A DNA stretch of 64,000 nucleotides from positions 122,129,586 through 122,193,585 of the forward strand of contig NC_134537.1 of NCBI RefSeq assembly GCF_050624435.1. Reading direction: 5' to 3'. This DNA comes from Tenrec ecaudatus (Eukaryota; Chordata; Mammalia; Afrosoricida; Tenrecidae). Positions within the stretch are counted from its first letter, which is position 1; each line of letters opens with the position of its first letter. Both the position numbers and the translations under genes were made by a program. Below are positions 33,204-64,000 of the stretch, one piece after another. The notes beneath the pieces were generated by a model. That model saw only the letters and a program-made list of their open reading frames with translations, was not told the DNA's origin and made no database searches.

Positions 33204-33364
33204 AATTGATATAGCTATGTGTCTATATAATTGAGATAGCTATGTGTCTATATATAATTGAGATAGCTATGTGTCTCTATATAATTGAGATAGCTATGTG
33301 TCTATATATAATTGAGATAGCTATGTATCTATATATAATTGAGATGGCTATGTGTCTATATATT
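33204..33364. repeat. 27-bp minisatellite, about 6 units
   Basis: The unit 'gatagctatgtgtctata' plus 'tataattga' is repeated with lengths of 25-27 bp. Length changes are in the TA dinucleotides. One unit has 'gtatct' and the last has 'gatggct'. Confidence 0.9.
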
Positions 33365-41609: not shown

Positions 41610-42535
41610 ATGAGACGACATCTAGACAAGTAACCCTTGTGGTTGGGTGCCATACTGTTGGTTCCAAGTCCCAGCAGCCCTGCGCACAACAGAAAGAAAC
41701 TCTGCCTGTTCCTGAGCCAACTTCACAATCGGTCCCAGCCTTGAGCCCATTGTCCCAACCGTGGTGTCGATCCGTCTTGTCAAAGGTCTTCCTCTTTTTC
41801 ACTGCCCCTCTACCATGCACGATGCCCTTCACCAGGGACAACATGTTCAAAGTATAAAAGATGAAGTCTGGCCATCCTTGCCTTTAAGGAGCATCCTGGC
41901 TGTACTTCTAAGACAGATTGGTTTAGGCTTTTGGCAGTTCATGGTACTTTCGACATTCTTTGCCAGCACCAGGATTCAAATGTATCGATTTTTCTTTGCT
42001 CGTCTTTTTCCGTGTCCCACTTTCACATGTTTTTGAGGCAATGGGAAATACCATGTCTTGGCTCATGTACACGTTAGTCTCCAAAGCAACCTCTTTGGTT
42101 GTCAGCACTTTAGCGGTCCTGGGCAGCAGACTTACCCAATAAAATTAATCCTTTGACCTCGTGACTGCTACCTCCATGAGTATTCATTGTGGAGACAAAT
42201 GAAATGAAATCCTTGACAACTATAATCATTTCTCCATTTATCGTAATTTTGTCTGTTGAGCCCTCATTTCCTGTTACCAAGTCGATGCTGACTCATACCG
42301 ACTCTATAGGGCAGCGTAGAACTGCCTCTGTGAGTTCCCAAGACTGTAACTTTTCATGGGAGTAAAAAGCCCCACCTTTCTCCCAAAGAGCAGCTGGTGG
42401 TTTTGAACTGCTGACTTTGCTGTTAGCAGCCCAACACTTAACCAGTTGGGAGGATCTTTGTTTTTCTTATACTGGGTTGTAATCCAGACTGAAAGCTGAA
42501 GTCTCTGATTTTCATGGACAAGTGCCCCAAGTCCT
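41610..42535 (-). mobile_element. RTE-clade LINE, antisense, split by a SINE
   Basis: Landmarks are 'gcccattgtcccaaccgtgg', 'aaggtcttcctctttttcac', 'tttaaggagcatcctggctg', 'ttggctcatgtacacgttag', 'cagcagacttacccaataaa' and 'gaaatccttgacaactataa'. After the SINE: 'tatactgggttgtaatccag' and 'caagtgccccaagtcc'. Frames are broken. Confidence 0.88.
42265..42447 (-). repeat. AfroSINE-type SINE nested in RTE
   Basis: 'taccaagtcgatgctgactc', 'ctatagggcagcgtagaact', 'cagctggtggttttgaactg' and 'cccaacacttaaccagttgg'. It interrupts the antisense RTE. Confidence 0.9.
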
Positions 42536-49594: not shown

Positions 49595-50025
49595 CATTGT
49601 AGCAGTACATTGACAGGGAGCTGTCAGAGGCTCAGACAGATTCGGAAGAGGATGTGGAACAAGTGATATCATTGCTGACGTCAGACGGATCTTGACTGAC
49701 AGCAGAGAACACCAGAAAGATGTTACTTGTGTGTCATTGACTAGTGTGCACAAAGAACAAGGAGATACTGCATGGTTTAAAATCTGGAAAGGTGTGTGTC
49801 AGGGTTGTATCCCCTCACCACATCTGCTCAATCTGTATGCTGAGCAAATCTTCAGTGAAGCTGGATTGAAGAAGAAGAGGGTGGCCGATTCAGAAGAGGA
49901 TGTGGAACAGGGGATGTCATTGCTGATGGGAGGATAGCACAGGGCCATGCAGTGTTTCGTTCCATTGTGCACAGAGTCACCATGGGTAGGAGCCAACTTG
50001 ATGGCATAGAACAACAACAATAGTC
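49595..50025 (+). mobile_element. RTE-clade LINE, 3' (sense) part
   Basis: 'cagtacattgacagggagct' (RTE 'QYIDREL'), 'gaggatgtggaacaagtgat', 'tctggaaaggtgtgtgtcag' and 'aatctgtatgctgagcaaat'. An internal deletion follows to the 3' tail 'gccaacttgatggcatagaa' with 'caacaacaa'. Together with 49055-49580 it is one 5'-inverted element. Confidence 0.88.
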
Positions 50026-62530: not shown

Positions 62531-62717
62531 TCCCCCCAGAAAGTCATGTGATAATTATGAATAAAAGTAATACATAATTATTCTGTAATTAATGGTTGGT
62601 CAAGAGGATTTTATTTTCCATTGTAATCCATACTGAAGGCTACAATCTTTTATCCTCATCCGTAAGTGCTTCAAGCTGTCTTCACTTTCAACCACCAAGG
62701 CTATGTCATCTGCATGT

Positions 62718-62862
62718 CTAACAGAACCACCACCACCACCACACAAAACAGCTCACAGCGACCCTAGAGGACAGGTAAGACTTCCCCTGTGGGTTCCTGA
62801 GACAGTCTTCAGGGGGATCGAAAGTCTCATCTTAACCCTGTGGAGCAGCTGCAGCCCAATGC
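62718..62862 (-). repeat. AfroSINE-type SINE, partial
   Basis: 'cagctcacagcgaccctaga', 'ggacaggtaagacttcccct', 'cctgagacagtcttcagggg'. Antisense. It ends just before RTE sequence resumes at 'ccttcctccagccttgatgc'. Confidence 0.75.
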
Positions 62863-62876
62863 CTTCCTCCAGCCTT

Positions 62877-63602
62877 GATGCCACATTCCCCATCCTAGAT
62901 GCCACATTCCCTATCCTAGATGCCACATTCCCCATCCTAGATGCCACATTCCCTATCCTAGGTGCCACATTCCCTATCCTAGAGCCCATATTCCCTATCC
63001 TAGAGCCCACATTCCCTATCCGAGAGCCCACATTCCCCATCCTAGATGCCACATTCCCTATCCTAGATGGCACATTCCCCATCCTAGATGCCACACTCCC
63101 TATCCTAGATGCCATATTCCCCATCCTAGATGCCACATTCCCCATCCTAGATGCCACATTCCCTATCCTAGGTGCCACATTCCCTATCCTAGATGCCACA
63201 TTCCCTATCCTAGAGCCCACATTCCCTATCCTAGAGCCCACATTCCCTATCCTAGATGCCACATTCCCTATCCTAGAGCCCACCTTCCCTATTCTAGAGC
63301 CCACATTCCCTATCCTAGAGCCCACATTCCCTAACCTAGATGCCACATTCCCTATCCTAGAGCCCACATTCCCTATCCTAGAGCCCACATTCCCTATCCT
63401 AGAGCCCACATTCCCTATCCTAGAGCCCACATTCCCTATCCTAGAGCCCACATTCCCTATCCTAGAGCCCACATTCCCTATCCTAGAGCCCACATTCCCT
63501 ATCCTAGAGCCCACATTCCCTATCCTAGATGCCACATTCCCTATCCTAGAGCCCACATTCCCTATCCTAGAGCCCACATTCCCCATCCTAAAGCCTACAT
63601 TC
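62877..63602. repeat. 21-bp minisatellite, 34 exact-length units, open on both strands
   Basis: Starting at 62877, 34 consecutive 21-bp units run without a single indel to 63590, followed by a partial unit. Two main variants exist: gatgccacattccctatccta (DATFPIL in the plus frame) and gagcccacattccctatccta (EPTFPIL). The gat type dominates the left half and the gag type the right, including eight gag units in a row at 63360-63527. Because 21 is divisible by 3 and the unit lacks stops, one plus frame (328 codons, 62703-63689) and one minus frame (277 codons, 62753-63586) stay open. The unit derives from RTE sequence. I do not call either frame a gene. Confidence 0.95.
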
Positions 63603-64000
63603 TCGGATTATCTGCTCAGCGTTCAGATTGAACAAATAAGGGGCAAAGAAACAACCTGGCAAACACATCTCCTGATTTTAAACCAATAGTATCCCCTAGG
63701 TATGTTAGAACAACTGCCTCTTGGTTTGTATGCAGGTTCCACATGAAATGTTCCATTACACAATTAGGGATTTGGGAATTTCTATTCTTTGAAATGTTAC
63801 CCATAGTTTGTTATGATCCACCCAGTTGAATACCTTGGCATAATCATAAAATACAAGGAAATGACTTTTTGGTATTCTCTGCTTTCAGCTAAGATCCATC
63901 TGACATCAACAATGACATACCTTGTTCCACATCCTCTTCTGAACCTGGTTTACATTTCTTGTAGCTCCCTGTTTTAACGTATCTTCAGCAGATTTTTACT

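Follow-up and report, generated by a model that had tools for sequence, protein, structure and literature searches.

The 64-kb window studied here, that is, the whole stretch of 64,000 nucleotides, contains a single-locus minisatellite that arose in place from a segment of an RTE retrotransposon. The array is made of 34 units, each exactly 21 bp long, at positions 62877..63590 (unstranded), and a partial unit extends it to 63602, as an earlier sequence-only reading of this DNA had described. Its register starts with GATG, and 12 distinct sequences are found among the 34 units, the commonest of which occurs 15 times. Tandem Repeats Finder (TRF), the check proposed in that reading, returns a single array at 62881-63602 with a period of 21, 34.4 copies, 92% matches and 0% indels; its score of 1101 is the highest of the 17 TRF rows in the window. 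With head-to-tail units between 10 and 100 bp in length (34 x 21 bp) the array belongs to the minisatellites. Taken as a whole, we regard an explanation by birth in place and later growth, with no supportable function, as highly probable. A minisatellite derived from a transposable element (TE) is an ordinary kind of locus; here it is well resolved, and the starting text and the spacing are unusually clear. Elsewhere in the window, at 33204-33363, there is a 27-bp minisatellite of 6 copies with 94% matches.

The array is flanked by a LINE that we take to belong to the RTE clade. A consensus of 471 bp was built from 30 RTE copies of the animal's own genome, which are the first of 100 listed places, all of them exact 23-nt matches on one contig. 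In its normal RTE form the 23-nt text of the site has 5601 genome matches with at most one mismatch (reversed control, 0), so that the flanking element is interspersed and of high copy number, as an RTE-like element should be. The flanks were expected to align to RTE, and against the 471-bp consensus they are collinear on both sides of the array: 62610-62724 corresponds to consensus 4-116, 62858-62888 to 123-155 and 63574-63900 to 148-466. On the right, the RTE text resumes as had been read, with consensus 177 onwards from 63603. The left flank is also RTE, and a SINE that is absent from the earlier reading lies at about 62725-62857 between the RTE text and the array.

Analysis of the flanks from left to right starts with the antisense text of the RTE LINE at 62610..62724 (consensus 4-116, reverse transcriptase (RT) coding on the minus strand), which is identical to the consensus in 92/115 columns and has similar copies elsewhere in the window. 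The inserted SINE follows at 62725..62857 (unstranded, ends approximate) and is delimited by its similarity to window copies and by the jump of the consensus from 116 to 123, with 6 bp of RTE (117-122) missing across it. It has a CACCACC-rich stretch on its left, and it matches window copies at 42292-42396 (from 62752-62851, E 6e-9) and at 1956-2051 (from 62755-62851, E 2e-5). We take this SINE to be AfroSINE-like, and the LINE and the SINE together look similar to the RTE1 / Afro SINE pair. Between the SINE and the array the RTE returns on the minus strand at 62858..62876 (about consensus 123-143; 28/33 columns for 62858-62888 against 123-155). Beyond the array, degraded reverse transcriptase text on the minus strand occupies 63603..64000 and runs past the window end (253/334 columns for 63574-63900 against 148-466). 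Pfam RVT_1 covers about 63612-63923 of it with E=0.0018 and 18.5 bits, which is below the cut-off of 29.6.

The surroundings hold several other rearranged or repeated copies. Two RTE copies of the window cross the site of the array and have no array. An RTE copy at 49600-49930 has a rearranged order, in which element text from farther right precedes the text of the site. A SINE resembling that next to the array contains a 63-bp tandem duplication at 1893-2018 with copies that are 98% identical, and a longer SINE copy of like appearance is found about 2.2 kb past the window end (L002, 4230-4435). Elsewhere in the genome, six RTE matches, all on the minus strand, lie within about 190 kb at G000:C1:8171490-8362308 (the region that holds L033 and L034); four of the six share an identical 33-nt text at the site, and this cluster was perhaps made by segmental duplication.

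The unit had been interpreted as RTE text of its own place, and our alignments agree. The units match consensus 144-164, GATGCCACATTCTTCTTCATA, without gaps in 12-17 of 21 positions (mean 14.9), and since they do so in register, one 21-bp segment became 34. Both joints are in register with the element, so the net length change is 33 extra 21-bp copies, without further gaps or insertions. At the right end, a half unit at 63591..63602 (unstranded) takes the place of consensus 165-176, where the native second half-repeat of the RTE is located, and its text now resembles the array units more than it resembles RTE. Two forms of the unit exist, TG (GATGCC) and GC (GAGCCC). When the TG unit was shuffled 5000 times, the mean score against the RTE segment was 5.9, three shuffles reached 14 and none reached 16; against the RTE consensus, no more than 0 and 4 of 2000 shuffles equalled or exceeded the TG units. 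Of the left-flank text CCAGCCTTGATGCCACATTC, 18/20 positions agree with the unit as well. The locus is therefore one in which the unit comes from TE text and the flanks are collinear with the TE, the left one also holding the SINE. A piece of the RTE was amplified in place, as had been claimed, and the minisatellite was very probably born inside a dead, SINE-interrupted RTE copy.

One of the questions raised by such a locus is how the first duplication was made. The RTE has at this place two degenerate half-repeats 21 bp apart, GATGCCACATTC and TAATCCAGCTTC. In the consensus they agree in 7/12 positions, the best agreement among offsets of 9-59 to both sides of box 1, and 7/438 positions of the whole consensus reach 7/12 at an offset of 21. 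A similar picture is obtained from 50 RTE copies (half of the 100 listed places; 30 of the loci measure about 3 kb and 20 about 5 kb), chosen by an exact 23-mer containing box 1 and all on one contig. Between the 12-mer and the sequence lying 21 bp downstream of it, 6.5/12 positions agree on average, against at most 4.7 for the other offsets between 15 and 30, and at least 8/12 is reached in 10/50 copies at offset 21 and in at most 1/50 at the others. Genome-wide, the pair spaced by 21 bp has 135 matches with at most 3 mismatches (19 of them in the array by our own count; control, 1) and the pair spaced by 20 bp has 7 (control, 0). The support for a seed comes only from this box-to-box test and the genome-wide patterns; autocorrelation of the complete surrounding text is unimpressive, with 28 bp scoring higher than 21 bp. 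Based on these counts, the founder duplication may have been produced by slippage or unequal exchange between the two half-repeats, a layout that is expected by the slippage model in the parts of PMC3389668 and PMC6947457 that cite Haber and Louis. We consider nucleation of the array by the half-repeats, as suggested by the sequence comparison, to be about an even call.

Another option is that the array is an in-place RTE minisatellite founded by chance break repair, or by way of a CCT(G)-type microhomology made by mutation, and not through the half-repeat. Exact repeats of the 12-mer GATGCCACATTC within 3-33 bp occur 6 times in the genome, 5 in the array and 1 at C1:200496701. The latter (L083, 501-532; G000:C1:200496701) is a two-copy duplication of 20 bp, found in a different RTE copy at the site that corresponds to the array, with some RTE text missing to its left; CCTG microhomology is visible there by eye, and it is possible that this duplication is an early stage of such an array. 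An independent array of 20 bp x 13.7 (L041:523-800; G000:C1, about 21.12 Mb) occupies a different RTE site. Its flanks are collinear with 19 other RTE copies, in which the empty site measures about 22 bp, and its unit agrees with the RTE consensus of that place in 17/20 positions. No strong native 20-bp half-repeat was found at that site, so an array need not always start from a half-repeat. It is the only array among the sampled RTE loci (1/50, 95% interval 0.05-11%). The match of the unit to left-flank CCAGCCTTGATGCCACATTC also speaks for a founder of this kind; against it, the array has a period equal to the spacing of the native half-repeat and keeps the register of both halves. We give this option a substantial probability, somewhat short of even. 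Of the 116 pair matches outside the array, 81 are listed, of which about 76 are RTE text and 5 are another repeat as judged by eye. None of the 81 forms a run of units, and a sharpened half-repeat thus rarely expands. It is for these reasons, namely the 28-bp autocorrelation, L041, the period of 20 at L083 and the missing runs among the listed matches, that half-repeat nucleation is held at about one half.

A more general proposal, which we find doubtful, is that a built-in 21-bp half-repeat just upstream of the YADD box in the RT gene would be a latent minisatellite seed in the RTE family. As RTE copies decay, chance substitutions would sharpen the half-repeat in some of them, which could then nucleate an array. 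If so, the RTE family would repeatedly give rise to new VNTR loci with a predictable period and place.

The unit variants give some indication of how the array grew after its founding, whichever way the founder was made. Since the RTE consensus carries TG, the GC form is derived. The sequence-only reading placed the two variants in separate halves. Segregation is indeed found, as TG is present in 12/17 of the first units and in 3/17 of the last (Fisher p=0.005; runs test p=0.004 by permutation), but the split is not clean, for GC units occur early too, at positions 5-7, 16 and 17. Adjacent units are more similar than in shuffled order (106/20000 shuffles as low). Outside the TG/GC pair, the first 17 units have 13 differences from the commonest unit and the last 17 have 5 (one-sided p 0.048), and units 23-30 are eight identical consecutive units. 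The pattern of the right half, mostly GC with fewer differences and the identical block, fits later copying there, as inferred from one assembly. Gene conversion or unequal sister exchange may have added units later and spread the derived GC form through the right half. A G-quadruplex was considered as a driver of the array and found to be weak. The minus strand of the array has a G4Hunter score of 0.94, and no 700-bp stretch of the window scores higher; its loops look long by eye, where G-quadruplex minisatellites of the CEB1 type have short ones, and the usual cut-off is 1.2.

Tandem arrays are often collapsed in assemblies, and the unit number, or the array itself, might be an artefact of this kind. 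The 12 unit types stand in an ordered pattern, however, and the array is located inside a contig of 166.7 Mb, which makes an assembly artefact very unlikely.

Another question is whether the array encodes anything. It had been described as open on both strands, and so it is, with two open frames on the plus strand (one of 350 codons) and one on the minus strand (284 codons), yet this has no special meaning, as chance predicts it: of 20000 21-mers drawn at random with the same composition, 97.5% have both strands open. Few of the 63 single changes to the commonest unit close an open frame, namely 3, 1 and 0 for the three frames. The frame in RT phase is a different one from these; it keeps its phase through the array and reads (ECG-I/L-stop-DR)n, with a stop in 33/34 units, which rules out RT protein for the amplified frame. 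The absence of indels had been presented, together with the open frames, as something to be explained, and neither is. In RTE copies there are 0.065 indels per substitution (22 gap openings/338 mismatches in BLAST pieces of the window), with an upper rate of 0.167 (310/1851, 30 copies against the consensus). For the 11-13 substitution events in the array, counted by us by parsimony from the unit list, 0.7-2.2 indels are expected and the probability of none is about 0.11-0.5; zero indels are therefore unremarkable. Indels do occur in such arrays, as the units of 20 and 21 bp at L041 indicate. The preference of the earlier reading for recent homogenisation over a constraint on length agrees with these data.

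The suggestion that selection on a protein from an open frame holds the array at multiples of 3 could draw on the uniform 21-bp length of all 34 units, on the 350- and 284-codon frames and on Pfam matches to the open frames, some above cut-off (Baculo_PEP_C 51.4 bits, FlaC_arch 39.2, HV_Gp350_C-term 27.3, and further V-SNARE_C, HSBP1 and RmuC). These families are unrelated and most have no single stretch above threshold, and the matches are read as artefacts of the 7-residue repeat. With openness at the level of chance, few single changes able to close the frames, 33 stops in RT phase and an expected lack of indels, we see no frame constrained by selection, as a protein-coding tandem repeat should have, and we consider this suggestion exceedingly improbable. 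A coding function, preservation of the RT frame and a significance of the missing indels were each rejected on the grounds of chance openness, the 33 stops and the indel expectation. No function is supportable for the array, and the locus has no sign of one; Rfam gave 0 matches at gathering score in the 64-kb window.

Pattern searches covered the animal's own genome (G000; 3.92 Gb, 2140 contigs), where counts for repeats may be lower bounds. A dimer of the unit (30 nt, at most 3 mismatches) has 33 genome matches, 33/33 of them in this array, with 0 for the reversed control; a DNA search with the whole array found only itself, and the exact 30-nt dimer has 0 matches in viral contigs. As the dimer is found in this array only, the locus is a single-locus minisatellite, a local array as opposed to a satellite family dispersed through the genome. 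If an independently arisen satellite had by chance inserted into an RTE copy, this might explain why the unit part CCTATCCTA differs from RTE and why the GC unit, taken by itself, scores no higher against RTE than its shuffles do (144/2000 as high; 169 and 80 of 500 against two RTE copies of the window), but the unit is absent elsewhere in the genome at up to 3 mismatches, the ancestral TG units beat nearly all shuffles and the array keeps the RTE register, so that such an origin has next to no probability. Neither of the two results that were to speak against the sequence-only reading, flanks not contiguous with RTE and an independent satellite family, appeared in the alignment and the genome search; a satellite family with the same unit is rejected for this assembly within the limits of that search (at most 3 mismatches).

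The starts of minisatellites are poorly known. In the parts of Ahmed and Liang (2012, PMC3389668) that deal with human TE-derived minisatellites, these number 7,276, or 23% of the total, and the start is explained in only 6%. For the RTE site described here, the ancestral text and the internal half-repeat can be read from thousands of empty copies in this genome, and the site also offers one two-copy stage (L083) and one long array. With empty copies, half-repeat, two-copy stage and long array together, the starting step becomes testable by counting. A table in PMC3747384 lists the RTE1 / Afro SINE pair for all afrotherians, so an afrotherian host is probable. No mammalian RTE-derived minisatellite was found in a literature search that included portions of the reviews PMC9659126 and PMC6947457, which is weak evidence of absence.

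Minisatellites derived from TEs are well known, and the new point here is the likely half-repeat seed. The human cases in the available portions of PMC3389668 are likewise tandem pieces of a TE expanded by local duplication, and short flanking direct repeats are one start proposed there (with reference to Haber and Louis 1998); that paper has no mention of RTE (0 occurrences). Unlike the cases in those portions, the half-repeats here are degenerate, overlap the unit and have a spacing equal to the period. In mouse, Ms6-hm (MaLR) and the SINE B1 minisatellites were likewise made inside a retroelement copy, according to passages of PMC6947457 and PMC9659126, but in element classes other than RTE. 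The B1 minisatellite family is called unstable in a title cited in those passages, whereas the array here is known from one assembly. Human MSY1, as treated in the relevant sections of PMC2599865, also has blocks of variant units, for which gene conversion by synthesis-dependent strand annealing is proposed there; polarity is suggested in those sections and stated as not significant. Mutation at MSY1 was measured, as the same sections report, whereas the turnover of the RTE-derived array is inferred from one assembly.
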